Shown one piece after another: positions 3,981-24,616 of a stretch of 42,260 nucleotides of DNA (position 1 is its first letter; each line of letters starts with the position of its first letter). A program made the translations under genes and the position numbers. The notes under the pieces are model-generated. The model saw only the letters and a list, made by a program, of their open reading frames with translations, ran no database searches and was not told where the DNA came from. The stretch spans positions 1-42,260 of the forward strand of contig JACPPQ010000096.1 in the NCBI GenBank assembly GCA_016190925.1, written 5' to 3'. This DNA comes from Chloroflexota bacterium (GTDB lineage: Bacteria; Chloroflexota; Dehalococcoidia; Dehalococcoidales; JACPPQ01).

Positions 3981-4523
3981 CTATTCCAGGTCAAGAATTA
4001 CCTCGGCGGCGAACTGCGCTATCTTGCCGGTTACATCGGCGCACTTGTGCTCTTTCTGTGTCGTCGCCTTCATATCTTCGAGCACGTTGGGGTCTCTCAT
4101 GTTCCATGTTTTTCCGTATATCTTTAGCTGAATATCCCGGCATATTGTGCTGCCGAACTCCTTTTCGACCTTATCACAGAGGAGACCGGCACGCCTCATA
4201 GTCTCCTTATAGGCCGAGGACTCACCTGATTTCTCCTGCTTATCTCTTCCATAGGCCAGTCCGATAGCCATAACTCCGGCAGACAAGGCCCCGCAAGCGC
4301 TCCTGCCGGTGCGTCCAAGTCCTCCTGATAGCCCGCTGGTCGCTTTGAACGCGGCCTCATTCTCCAGTCCCAGGTTCTGCACTAGTCCCGCTAGTGAAGC
4401 AGACGCTCAACCTCCCCAGTTCATCTCCCAGTCGTGGGCGGCCTGGTTAATCTTCTTTGCCAGCGCCCTTTTTTCCTTCCCGCTCATTTTCTCGATTCGC
4501 TCCCTTACATTCTGTGTGGCCAC
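3981..4523 (-). CDS. C-GCAxxG-C-C family putative selenoprotein (in-frame TGA at 4407-4409 read as Sec; GTG 4523 or ATG 4487 start)
   Basis: Reading frame VATQNVRERIEKMSGKEKRALAKKINQAAHDWEMNWGG[TGA]ASASLAGLVQNLGLENEAAFKATSGLSGGLGRTGRSACGALSAGVMAIGLAYG... continues in phase on both sides of the TGA; the TGA sits at the position of the family's first conserved Cys; AAAGGAGG SD upstream of GTG 4523. Confidence 0.82.
4376..4403 (-). promoter_or_regulatory. Candidate bacterial SECIS hairpin
   Basis: TGA-GCG-TCTG-CTT-CACTAG-CGGGA-CTAGTG-CAGA: perfect 6-bp upper stem, 4-bp lower stem, 3-nt bulge; apical loop begins 16 nt after TGA with G at loop position 2. Confidence 0.7.
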
Positions 4524-4725
4524 ACCTCCTCCTTTCAGCTTTGAGCTTTAATTTGTCAGCTTGTAGCTTTTAGACCTCCCCGCCACTGGATTCCGGCATC
4601 CCCAGGAATGGGTTATTTGTGGGTTGGCTGATGGCACTGTCATGTCTCATGTCACAAAGATTATAACGTCAAGCTTCTCCCCGTTCAAGTTGAAAATTTT
4701 AATACACTCCAACATAGCAAATTCG

Positions 4726-7010: not shown

Positions 7011-7140
7011 TATTAATCGATTGAGCCATCGACCAGTTTCCGGCGGTGAGCTAAGAGCAGTCGAAAACGAGTGAACCTTTAACAAGATTTGGCCGCTTGG
7101 ATCGGACGTGACCGAGACGGTGAAGATGTGTGGTTCTGCG

Positions 7141-7196: not shown

Positions 7197-8075
7197 ATGA
7201 TGAAACTAGGATTTATCGGAGCCGGAACGGTGGGAACTGCCCTGGCGCACAGGCTGAATGCCGGGGGATATAAGGTTGTGGCCGTGTCCAGCCGCACTAA
7301 AGCATCGGCAGAGAAACTGGCGCAATCTATCGATGGTTGCCGGGCTTATGATGACAGCCAGGGCGTGGCCGACAATGCTGAGCTCGTTTTCATCACTACG
7401 CCGGATGCCGCTATCGGTCAGGTAGCGGCGCAGACCGTGTGGCATGCAGGGCAGAGCGTAGTACATTGCAGCGGCGCGGACTCTACACAGGTGCTTGAGC
7501 CAGCCAGCAAACCGGGCGCTGTGGTTGGCACTTTCCACCCTTTGCAGACCTTTGCCAGCGTAAGACAGGCGATTGAAAATCTCCCCGGCTCGATTTTTGG
7601 TATCGAGGCTGAAGAGCCGCTACTGGGCACACTCAAAGATATGGCTATCGCCCTCGATGGGCGCTGGGTGGAACTGGATGCCAGCGACAAGGTACTGTAC
7701 CACGCATCGGCGGTTATTGCCTGCAACTACCTGGTCACCCTGGTCAAAATGGCAACCGACCTGTGGCAGAGTTTCGGCATTTCGCCACAAGAAGCAACCA
7801 AGTCGCTACTCCCTTTGCTGCGCGGGACAATCAGCAACATCGAAGCTATCGGGCTGCCGAACTGTCTCACCGGGCCTATCGCTCGCGGGGATACCGGAAC
7901 GGTCAAAAAACACCTCGATGCGCTGGAAAGGACGGCTCCAGACCTGCTTTCAGCCTATCGCGAGCTTGGCCGCCAGACAATCCCCATAGCTTTAGCCAAA
8001 GGGAAAATTAATCAGCTTCAGGCACAGGAGCTTGAGGCGATACTACAGGAACCTGTTACCCAGAGGAATCGTTAA
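7197..8075 (+). CDS. Rossmann-like and DUF2520 domain-containing oxidoreductase (possible PanG-type ketopantoate reductase)
   Basis: N-terminal [19 protein letters not shown](P) motif, GTFHPLQTF region typical of DUF2520 proteins; first gene of panDBC operon. Confidence 0.8.
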
Positions 8076-8091
8076 AGGAGCGAGTCCCACA

Positions 8092-8460
8092 ATGAGAATC
8101 ATGCTCAAGAGCAAAATACACCGGGCCAGAGTCACTCAGTGCAACATCGATTATGAAGGCAGCATCACCATCGACCGGGAGCTTATGCGTGAAGCGGATA
8201 TCCTCCCCTATGAGCAGGTACAGGTGTTGAATGTCAACAACGGCGCCCGTTTTAGCACCTATGCCATCGAAGGTGGAAAAGGCGAAATCTGCCTGAACGG
8301 CGCGGCGGCCAGGCTGGTCGACAAGGGCGATATTGTAATTATCCTTTCCTACTGTCATGTAGACGAAGCCGAGGCTCATGATTTTGCACCGAGGCTGGTC
8401 TACGTTGACGCTAAAAACTCTATCACAGGAGTCAAAAGAGAAGTCGAAACACGAGTGTGA
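8092..8460 (+). CDS. panD: Aspartate 1-decarboxylase
   Basis: [45 protein letters not shown] cleavage site present. Confidence 0.95.
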
Positions 8461-8480
8461 CCTCTTTTGAGGGAGGTGTA

Positions 8481-9308
8481 ATGCGGGTTACCATCAGCCA
8501 GATAAAAGAAATGAAGCAGGCGGGCGAGAAAATCGCCATGCTGACCTCCTACGACTACTCCACGGCAAAACTCGTTGACACAATCGACATTCCCCTGATA
8601 CTTGTCGGAGATAGCCTGGGCATGGTAGTGCTGGGCTACGAATCAACGATTCCGGTCACTATGGAAGAAATGCTGCACCACACCAAAGCCGTTGTTCGAG
8701 GCACAAAGCATGCTATGATAGTTGGCGATATGCCGTTCATGACCTACCATATCAGTATCGAGGATGCTCTGCGCAACGCTGCCCGTTTCATCCAGGAGGG
8801 GGGAGCGCAGGCAGTTAAACTGGAAGGCGGAGTAACGGTAGCGGAGAAGGTCAGAAGAATCGTGGAGTGCGGCATTCCCGTGATGGGACACATCGGCCTT
8901 ACGCCACAATCGATTAACCAGCTAGGCGGCTATAAGATTCAGGGGAAAAGCCCAGAGGCAGCGGCCGGGCTGCTCAAGGATGCTCGCGCCCTGGAAGACG
9001 CAGGGGCTTTCGCCATAGTGCTGGAGACCGTGCCTGCTCCGCTGGCGAGCCTCATTACTCAGAAAGTGAAGATTCCCACCATCGGCATCGGCGCGGGAGC
9101 CGGATGCGATGGGCAAGTGCAGGTGATAAACGACCTTCTCGGCTCCTTTGCCGATTTTGTTCCGAAGCATGCCAAGCGATATGCTAAGCTGAGCGATATT
9201 ATGTCAAGTGCCATCGGCCAATATTACAAAGAGGTCAAGGAAGGCGCTTTCCCTACCGCAGAGCACAGTTTTGCGATGGATGAGAGCGTCCTGGCGCAGC
9301 TTTCCTGA
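8481..9308 (+). CDS. panB: 3-methyl-2-oxobutanoate hydroxymethyltransferase
   Basis: MLTSYDYSTAKL, LVGDSLGMVVLGYESTIPVT, GIPVMGHIGLTPQS motifs. Confidence 0.96.
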   Translation: MRVTISQIKEMKQAGEKIAMLTSYDYSTAKLVDTIDIPLILVGDSLGMVVLGYESTIPVTMEEMLHHTKAVVRGTKHAMIVGDMPFMTYHISIEDALRNAARFIQEGGAQAVKLEGGVTVAEKVRRIVECGIPVMGHIGLTPQSINQLGGYKIQGKSPEAAAGLLKDARALEDAGAFAIVLETVPAPLASLITQKVKIPTIGIGAGAGCDGQVQVINDLLGSFADFVPKHAKRYAKLSDIMSSAIGQYYKEVKEGAFPTAEHSFAMDESVLAQLS

Positions 9309-9452
9309 TTCTGAAACGGATTAGTATAGAGGTTGCTTCGCCCCGCTCGCCTGCCAAAGTCTTGTACGGCGGGCAGGTGTACGGCGAGCAGGCCAAAGGC
9401 GAGTGGACTCGCAAATGGCGAGATAGTCTCTTTTAGGGTTAATGCCACGAGC

Positions 9453-10310
9453 ATGAAAGTCATACAGACCATAGCCGAAATGAGGAAACTGAGGCAGCGT
9501 CTTCTTGAGCCGGTTGGCTTTGTTCCTACCATGGGGTATCTCCACGAGGGACACTTGACCCTGGTCAGGAAAGCCAAAGAAAAGAACGCCTCGGCAGTAG
9601 TCAGCATCTTTGTCAATCCAACGCAGTTCGGCCCTCAAGAGGACTTCGAGAAGTACCCCCGCGACACCGAACGTGACTTAGCCATGCTGAAAACGGCTAA
9701 GACAGACGCAGTCTTTATGCCATCCGCTGAGGAGATGTACCCCGCAAACTCTGTTACCTGGGTGGATGTCAAGAAAATCACCGAGCATTTGGAGGGCGCT
9801 GCCAGGCCCGGCCACTTCAGGGGAGTTGCCACAGTTGTCGCCAAGCTGTTCAACATCGTACAACCGGACAGGGCTTACTTCGGGCAGAAGGATGCCCAGC
9901 AGGTGCTGGTGGTCAAAAGGATGGTGGCAGACCTGAACATGAACATCGAGGTCATTGCCGTACCCACTGTGCGAGAGCCTGACGGCCTGGCAATGAGCAG
10001 TCGCAATATCTACCTCAACCCGGAGCAGCGCAAGGCAGCGACAGTCCTTTACCGTGCGCTGAACCATGTTCTGGAACTATGGTCGGAGGGCGAGAGAAAT
10101 CCGGCGAGGCTGCGCCGTCACATGCTGGATGTTTTGCGAAGCGAACCGCTGGCAGTAGTCGAGTATGTCAGCGTAGCAGACCCAGAGACACTCGAAGAGA
10201 TGGAGACCGCCAAGCCGGGTGGCCTGGTATCGATGGCTGTCAGAGTCGGGAAAACGCGTCTGATTGATAACATGGTGCTAGAGCTGAAGCCCCGGCTACT
10301 CCCCGATTAA
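9453..10310 (+). CDS. panC: Pantothenate synthetase
   Basis: VPTMGYLHEGHLTLVRKA, FVNPTQF, YFGQKDAQQ, REPDGLAMSSRN motifs; start set at MKVIQTIAEM. Confidence 0.96.
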   Translation: MKVIQTIAEMRKLRQRLLEPVGFVPTMGYLHEGHLTLVRKAKEKNASAVVSIFVNPTQFGPQEDFEKYPRDTERDLAMLKTAKTDAVFMPSAEEMYPANSVTWVDVKKITEHLEGAARPGHFRGVATVVAKLFNIVQPDRAYFGQKDAQQVLVVKRMVADLNMNIEVIAVPTVREPDGLAMSSRNIYLNPEQRKAATVLYRALNHVLELWSEGERNPARLRRHMLDVLRSEPLAVVEYVSVADPETLEEMETAKPGGLVSMAVRVGKTRLIDNMVLELKPRLLPD

Positions 10311-21771: not shown

Positions 21772-21937
21772 GTATCGAGTACGGGGCAGGCTCTGAACGG
21801 GACAAGCTTCGCGGAGGGTGACAGTTTAGCGGGGGAGCCCTTGTCTTGAATTGCACAAACCGGTGGTATTATTTTAATCTTACCAACGAGATTGCTTCGC
21901 CTCGCAATGACTATTAATACAATTGGGGAGGGGTATC

Positions 21938-22618
21938 ATGAACGAGGAACTATGCGTCAACTGCGCCGCGTGTGCTACACTGGTCTGCCGCACCGCCGAG
22001 TCCCAGAAAGGACCGGATTACTGCGCTACGCGCATCGAGGCAGACGTTATTGCTGGAACCAGGCCCTTGTACCAGGACCCGGAACTTGCGGAATTTGCCC
22101 GCAATGCCTCCCTTGTCGAAGCGGAGTCCTACATCAGGGTCCCGTGGTACCCGGCGCATCCGTCACCGGCAACCACCCGGTTGGAAGAGATAATCAATTT
22201 CTGCCGGAAAATGAAATACAAGAAGCTCGGAGTGGCGTATTGCGCCGGCCTGGTGAACGAAGTCAGGATTCTGGTGCCTATCCTGGAGAGCAAAGGTTTT
22301 CAGGTGCTCTCGGTCTGCTGCAAGCATGGCGGAATACCGAAGGAAGAAATCGGCATCAAGGACTCGGAAAAGGTGCGTCCCGGCAGGTGGGAATCGATGT
22401 GCAATCCCATCTCCCAGGCGCAGATACTTAACAAGGAGAAAACCGACTTCAATATAGTGGTGGGGTTGTGCGTGGGACACGATTCGCTTTTCCTGAAGCA
22501 CGCCGAAGCAATGACCACCGTTTTCGTGGTGAAAGACCGTCTTTTAGGACACAATCCGGTAGTTGCGCTATACCAGGCTTCCGGCTACTACAGGCGGGTG
22601 AAGGAGGGAAATCTCTAG
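21938..22618 (+). CDS. DUF1847 domain-containing Cys-rich protein
   Basis: MNEELCVNCAACATLVCRTAESQKGPDYC, GVAYCAGLVNEVRIL, SMCNPISQAQILN, GLCVGHDSLF. Confidence 0.82.
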   Translation: MNEELCVNCAACATLVCRTAESQKGPDYCATRIEADVIAGTRPLYQDPELAEFARNASLVEAESYIRVPWYPAHPSPATTRLEEIINFCRKMKYKKLGVAYCAGLVNEVRILVPILESKGFQVLSVCCKHGGIPKEEIGIKDSEKVRPGRWESMCNPISQAQILNKEKTDFNIVVGLCVGHDSLFLKHAEAMTTVFVVKDRLLGHNPVVALYQASGYYRRVKEGNL

Positions 22619-22645
22619 CAGCCGTAGTCGTTCCTCTTGTCAAAT

Positions 22646-24616
22646 TCACACTTTTGAAAAGTATCCCGCTTTTTCAACATCGCGGGCTATATCTCCGAGA
22701 CCCAGAGCTATCAGGCCGCTTTTGGTGGGAGTCCCGGACTTTACGTCCCAGCCGCGCTCATCATAATAATCGTCGAGCATTTTCTCACATTCTTCCCTGT
22801 TGAGCGGCTCCCCAAAGTAGGATTCCAGATACCTTTTCCCGCCGTTAGTGATGACCGGTTCAAACCACCGGTCCGGCCATTTATCATCTTTCCTGGTGAA
22901 CCCTTCACGGAGGTTAAGCACCTTTAACAGGTTATATGACCTTTCGGCAGCCAGGCCGAGTTCACGGGGCGTGGTCTCGATGCCTGTCGCCGCTGAAAAA
23001 AGCTCGGTATAGACCTGCGCGTCATAGTACTTGTCTATTCTGCCCCTGAGGCAGCCTGTACCCAGATTGTTGCTGATGAGGATATATTCGTCAGCCCATT
23101 TACAGATTCGTGCGATATTGACTTTGCCCCCGGCGAAGACCCTCTCTATGGCTTCCTGCGGGATGGCTGCCCTTTTTTGAGCCCACTCCCTGAACATCTC
23201 TCCTGACTGCATGTTCGCCTTGGCTGTTCCGTAAACGTGAGGCCGCCCCGCGTGAGCCCCCCTGGGATTGACGATTTGCCCGAACTCACCTACGCCGACC
23301 CGGTTTACCCTGGCATCATAAAGCGCCTGCATGCCCTTGACATGAATGGCTGATTTTTCGCATCCGCGACCAATCTTCTCAATCGCGCTGAGAAGCCCAC
23401 CCCCCAGGACAGCGCCGAAACCCTCGTTTTGCGCAATCTTCTCAAGGAGCTTCATAGTAGTATCGAAGTCCCATTCAAGCTTCAAGCCATCGGTGTCTTC
23501 CCCTGTGATTATTCCCTGCCGGTACAGGTCGGTGGCCCAGTCTATGAGCGCTGTGGTCTCATGGACGCACAATCCCATGCGCTGGCAATAGTCGAGGGCT
23601 TTGATGGCCCTGTTGAAACTGCCGACGTTAGAACGCCCCGCGAAGTTAGCCAACCGCCCGTAAAGGGACGAACCATAAGTTTCGAGCCCCGCAAACTCAC
23701 CCTCCCTGACTCTTACGTAGTCTTTACAGCCGACGGGACATCCGGGGTCGGCAATCCGGCGGAATTTGATATTTTTCAGGTACACATCAGGGCTGTAAAG
23801 GCGTTCCGCTTCATCTGCGGACAGCACAGAGCGCCAGTTTCGGCTGGAAACGCCCTGTACCTTGAACCACCCCTCCCAACCTGCCATAGTCCCGAGTTCC
23901 AGGTTTCTTTTGCGCATGGGGTCGCTATATATGCGCTGTTTCAAGACGGAAACTACCCTATCGAGACGCTCTGGGTCTGCTACCCTGACCGGTTTCGCGC
24001 CCCTGACAACAATGGCCTTGAGGTTTTTGGAGGCCATCAGGGCCGGCAGACCGCCTTTGCCCAGCGTCGCCACCTTGTCGACCAGACATACAGTTGTCTT
24101 TACGAATCTTTCGCCAGCAGGCCCGATAGCACATACCGAGGAGCCGGGGTGCTTTTCGGTCAAGGCATCGCTGGCTTGATAGAGGTCCGCGCCCCAGAGA
24201 TGGTCCGCATCGTAAATCCTGACCTCTTCGTTGTGAATGCCCAGGTAGCAGCGTTTGGGCGATTTTCCGGTGATGATGAGGTAATCATACCCGGCCCTTT
24301 TGAGCATGATACCGAGTTTGCCGCCACCCTTTGCGTTTTCGATTACTCCGTAAGCAGGATGCTTGTATAGAGTGAAGAACCGGTGGCTGGCGGGGGCAGG
24401 AATGCCAACGCAGGGACCAGCGCCGAAGATTATCGGGCTGTCCTCGGAAAAAACGTCCATTCCGGGCCGGATGAGGTCGTACCCCAACCTGAAATTGCCG
24501 CCCTCGCCGCCGGTAAACTTCTCAACCAATTCACCATCGAGAGGCTCTTTTCGTGCCGAGCCGGTAGTCAAATCCACGATGAGGATACGCCCGGCATAAC
24601 CGCCAGATTGCGCCAT
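22646..24616 (-). CDS. Aldehyde:ferredoxin oxidoreductase family protein
   Basis: GYAGRILIVDLTTGSARKEPL, GPCVGIPAPASHRFF, GKGGLPALMASKNLKAIVVRG, GCPVGCKDYV, NNLGTGC. Confidence 0.9.
   Translation of the reverse strand: MAQSGGYAGRILIVDLTTGSARKEPLDGELVEKFTGGEGGNFRLGYDLIRPGMDVFSEDSPIIFGAGPCVGIPAPASHRFFTLYKHPAYGVIENAKGGGKLGIMLKRAGYDYLIITGKSPKRCYLGIHNEEVRIYDADHLWGADLYQASDALTEKHPGSSVCAIGPAGERFVKTTVCLVDKVATLGKGGLPALMASKNLKAIVVRGAKPVRVADPERLDRVVSVLKQRIYSDPMRKRNLELGTMAGWEGWFKVQGVSSRNWRSVLSADEAERLYSPDVYLKNIKFRRIADPGCPVGCKDYVRVREGEFAGLETYGSSLYGRLANFAGRSNVGSFNRAIKALDYCQRMGLCVHETTALIDWATDLYRQGIITGEDTDGLKLEWDFDTTMKLLEKIAQNEGFGAVLGGGLLSAIEKIGRGCEKSAIHVKGMQALYDARVNRVGVGEFGQIVNPRGAHAGRPHVYGTAKANMQSGEMFREWAQKRAAIPQEAIERVFAGGKVNIARICKWADEYILISNNLGTGCLRGRIDKYYDAQVYTELFSAATGIETTPRELGLAAERSYNLLKVLNLREGFTRKDDKWPDRWFEPVITNGGKRYLESYFGEPLNREECEKMLDDYYDERGWDVKSGTPTKSGLIALGLGDIARDVEKAGYFSKV

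Follow-up and report, generated by a model that had tools for sequence, protein, structure and literature searches.

A gene on the minus strand of the window, by which is meant the whole 42,260-nucleotide stretch of Dehalococcoidales DNA analysed, very probably encodes a small redox selenoprotein of the C-GCAxxG-C-C family, with selenocysteine (Sec) inserted at residue 39 by the sel system with the help of a hairpin (Table 1). Sec insertion, the redox function and the partner residues of the Sec are predictions rather than observations. Gene callers stop at the TGA codon and so lose the residue that is most likely the catalytic one, and the annotation is consequently wrong here, as it will be in this and similar Dehalococcoidales genomes.

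Reading frame and family assignment

The ORF called with translation table 11 covers 3981..4382 (minus strand) and codes for 133 aa from a GTG start. The first-pass annotation had proposed that this frame, starting at GTG 4382, runs on upstream past one TGA, and translation confirmed both points. Between 4523 and 3981 on the minus strand the TGA at 4409-4407 is the single interruption and the stop codon lies at 3983-3981. With TGA read as U from GTG 4523, a product of 180 residues is obtained with one U, at residue 39. A Shine-Dalgarno-like sequence does precede GTG 4523, as had been claimed, and ATG 4487 is also in frame, 12 codons downstream of that GTG. U39 is preceded by 38 residues if GTG 4523 is the start and by 26 if ATG 4487 is. 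The ATG is the closer of the two to the usual start of the homologues, an example being L021 (MKKDKEAVLKKAYEMGFYYSKEYKGC), and either codon may serve as the start of the gene. It should be mentioned that TGAs in open frames of comparable size number 25 in the whole window, and an interrupted frame alone therefore means little. Only one of these 25, the TGA at 4409-4407, has a SECIS-like hairpin behind it whose stem counts at least six Watson-Crick pairs.

Table 1. Features of the predicted selenoprotein gene in window coordinates.
Feature	Position	Strand	Remarks
Selenoprotein gene, C-GCAxxG-C-C family (predicted)	3981..4523	minus	180 aa with TGA = Sec; start GTG 4523 or ATG 4487
In-frame TGA, predicted Sec codon, residue 39	4407..4409	minus	aligns with the family's first conserved Cys
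Shine-Dalgarno-like AAAGGAGG	4528..4535	minus	four bases 5' of GTG 4523
SECIS-like hairpin	4376..4403	minus	UCUGC / UUC bulge / ACUAG, loop CGGGA, CUAGU GCAGA
Codon of conserved C77, Cys of the GCAxxG motif (here ACGALSAG)	4293..4295	minus	sequence and alignment
Codon of conserved C128 (STIC)	4140..4142	minus	sequence and alignment
Codon of conserved C161 (HKC)	4041..4043	minus	sequence and alignment

The read-through product belongs to the C-GCAxxG-C-C family, as had been suggested, with scores above the cut-off for both Pfam C_GCAxxG_C_C (PF09719; E = 2.5e-23, 82.8 bits against a cut-off of 27, residues 39-174) and NCBIfam TIGR01909, "C-GCAxxG-C-C family (seleno)protein" (55.1 bits against a curated cut-off of 47.4, residues 39-176). 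Both matches start at residue 39, which places the family's first Cys position at the TGA. The family pattern C ... GCAxxG ... C ... C is found in full with Sec as its first member (U39, C77, C128, C161), the three downstream Cys residues predicted by the first-pass annotation (CGAL, STIC, HKC) all being there.

Homologues were sought in 156 genomes of the same order and matches were obtained in 83 of these. From them, 50 distinct homologous frames were aligned with TGA read as U, the window gene included. In the TGA column 38 of the frames have Cys and 12, counting the window gene, have TGA, while no other residue occurs. Homologues with neither Cys nor Sec at this position, which would have spoken against the proposed selenoprotein, are thus absent (0/50), and the placement of U at the first conserved Cys stands. 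Where the homologues have further in-frame TGAs, these are placed 22 or more alignment columns ahead of the Sec column, or at or beyond the domain's C-terminal end. In an alignment of 22 sequences, C/U39, C77 and C128 are invariant and C161 is nearly so.

These alignments also bear on the possibility that the true translation start is the one 3' of the TGA, at GTG 4382, with a functional shortened protein lacking the first Cys and with the upstream homology as a relic. The ORF 3981-4382 is complete and has a GTG start, as this would require. However, the 38 codons upstream of the TGA align with family members up to the invariant Cys column, Cys or TGA is retained there in every one of the homologous frames, and a strong Shine-Dalgarno sequence precedes GTG 4523, so that a downstream start is considered extremely unlikely.

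The nearest homologues of the window gene in the 156 genomes are only about 35% identical to it. No close relative in which the conservation of the window TGA could be followed was found among these genomes, and a scan of contigs with the selenoprotein as query found no relative. No part of the broad homologue alignment was sufficiently conserved to serve as a search query; searching from a close clade of Cys forms yielded 21 named loci.

The SECIS-like hairpin and the Sec machinery

The hairpin lies directly 3' of the UGA, with an apical loop that begins 16 nt after it, an upper stem of 5-6 bp and six Watson-Crick pairs. Folded alone, it has an energy of -9.7 kcal/mol. According to published rules, a bacterial SECIS element (bSECIS) has a loop of 3-9 nt whose first or second position is a G, a stem of 4-16 bp, a distance of 16-37 nt from the UGA and an MFE of -7.5 kcal/mol or lower (PMC13188914). 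The window hairpin agrees with every one of these, its spacing of 16 nt being at the lower limit. None of 400 synonymous recodings had six Watson-Crick pairs at a permitted position; the background in ordinary window genes is 6 of 2504 codon positions. In the homologues, at least six such pairs were found in 6/12 TGA genes versus 0/38 Cys genes, and the remaining TGA homologues reach six or more pairs once G-U pairs are allowed. The loop starts 16-20 nt after the UGA in all 12 TGA genes, mostly at 20 nt and with GUU or CGUGAU loops. In terms of free energy, the 40-nt stretch does no better than its synonymous recodings (P = 0.52), and once 46 nt or more are folded another structure is favoured, so the support for the hairpin comes from its geometry and not from its stability. 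Geometry with controls was used in place of folding energy, which alone did not single out the Sec hairpin. Scanning the window for Rfam families and tRNAs returned nothing for the selenoprotein gene.

A host genome lacking selB or selC had been named as grounds for rejecting the selenoprotein. The search for the machinery found selA, selB, selC and selD all present, together on one 14 kb contig (C30) of the window's own genome, with scores of 569.3 bits for selA, 349.5 for selB, 394.1 for selD and 71.5 for tRNA-Sec. ARAGORN independently identified a tRNA-SeC with anticodon TCA on the same contig. The selD gene (L070, 2122-3048) itself has one in-frame TGA in the context GAG-U-ACK, with a hairpin bearing a GGA loop 20 nt after the TGA. 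The selenophosphate synthetase SelD of this organism is therefore itself a predicted selenoprotein, and if so the organism would need Sec decoding even for this enzyme. Within the order, selB is present in 93/156 genomes, and at E ≤ 1e-60 in 8/9 genomes with TGA-bearing homologues, the exception (G082) being an incomplete MAG. This association goes in the expected direction and is weak, because selB is common in the order, so that it is only suggestive.

A pseudogene, or an assembly or sequencing error, might also have turned a Cys codon (TGC or TGT) into TGA, in which case the 133-aa fragment or nothing at all would be made. A single base change separates TGA from either Cys codon, a GTG is available for the 133-aa ORF itself, and the source genome is a fragmented MAG (2.31 Mb, 178 contigs, 87% complete). 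Nevertheless, the frame is otherwise intact and keeps all other conserved residues, a hairpin of the kind expected for a Sec codon is present at a permitted spacing and is lacking in the Cys homologues, eleven further copies in other genomes have TGA at the identical column, and the genome decodes Sec. A pseudogene or such an error is accordingly judged very improbable, and the gene is taken in what follows to encode a Sec-containing protein.

Cys/Sec exchange within the order

When the Sec state is mapped on a tree of the 50 homologues, five changes are required, of which at least three are forced by well-supported branches, pointing to repeated exchange of Cys and Sec at the first position. 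With about five such changes within one order, the family offers a handy natural series for studying what is gained with Sec as against Cys. The window gene forms a solitary long branch apart from the Sec genes of family f27, and its exact placement is unsure. In five f27 genomes the TGA-bearing homologues (L078, L079, L080, L083, L084) lie directly 3' of a uvrB-like gene, as judged by eye (MPDFKIVSDFKMTGDQPQ...), and one of these loci (L080, genome G100) has two tandem Sec copies.

The window's genome also has a second member of the family, in the Cys form, on another contig (C35 of G000; L077, 3266-4063). Its product carries a twin-arginine-like signal (TTRRQFLKTVGG) and is therefore probably exported. 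A Cys form is found directly 3' of selA-selB on the same strand in two genomes, each from a different family of the order (L073, 4164-4706, in G053; L074, 3744-4280, in G060), overlapping or with a gap within about 80 bases, which suggests that in these two genomes it is in an operon with the Sec machinery.

Predicted structure, possible function and known relatives

A model of the window protein (3984-4523), built with 18 relatives from named records of the close Cys clade loci, is all-helical and confident (pLDDT 90.1, pTM 0.90). Helices in the model start at residue 39, at the 77/78 step, at 128 and at 160/161. The N-terminus of a helix is a common site for reactive thiols or selenols. A sequence search of the PDB found no relative of the selenoprotein and a fold search with the model returned nothing at E ≤ 0.001, leaving a confident predicted fold with no match among solved structures.

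In the proposed mechanism, SelB and tRNA-Sec, together with the hairpin directly after UGA 4409-4407, would recode the UGA on the ribosome, and Sec would replace the first of four conserved cysteines in a small all-helical protein. From its place at the beginning of a helix, the selenol of residue 39 may then act together with C77, C128 or C161, or several of these, in redox chemistry of the thiol/selenol-disulfide type or in metal handling. Judging by the model, the four conserved positions could together make up a site for redox chemistry or metal handling; these Cys/Sec positions, and the Pfam label "putative redox-active protein", suggest a thiol/selenol redox function. The neighbouring genes on the same strand are a diaminopimelate epimerase gene 73 bases downstream and one for a metallo-beta-lactamase-fold protein about 200 bases upstream, and these give no clear hint of a substrate.

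Elsewhere in the window, an Rfam pan motif (RF01749, 37.3 bits) is located at 7024-7124 on the plus strand, upstream of pantothenate-synthesis-like genes (panD/panB/panC-like ORFs, 8032-10310). The region 21923-24616 holds genes for a DUF1847 protein and an aldehyde:ferredoxin oxidoreductase, adjoined by TRAP-transporter-like genes on the minus strand.

It may also be imagined that in Dehalococcoidales the C-GCAxxG-C-C family, with a fold so far missing from the PDB, serves selenium metabolism itself, for instance by carrying or buffering reactive selenium. The repeated Cys/Sec exchange and the Cys copies behind selA-selB in two families prompt this idea, though it is considered unlikely. The predicted redox selenoprotein is the reading followed in the comparison below.

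C-GCAxxG-C-C selenoproteins (PF09719) have been tabulated as forms 1 and 2 with one Sec each (PMC13188914), and there is one entry for them in a second source (PMC9312934). The window gene shares with forms 1 and 2 the Pfam family, the single Sec per protein and bacterial sel decoding of UGA, and differs in being a new locus, from Dehalococcoidales. With respect to TIGR01909 it scores above the cut-off, but differs by the 38 (or 26) residues before the first Cys/Sec position. There is weak similarity over residues 38-163 to the HUGP/GUXX-star fusion selenoprotein (NF045501); at 42 bits versus a cut-off of 325, the window protein is not a member of that group. That the use of Sec by the family was already established, the novelty being the locus and the organism, is borne out by the review tables, and the window gene clearly adds one more example to a type of selenoprotein that was known before.
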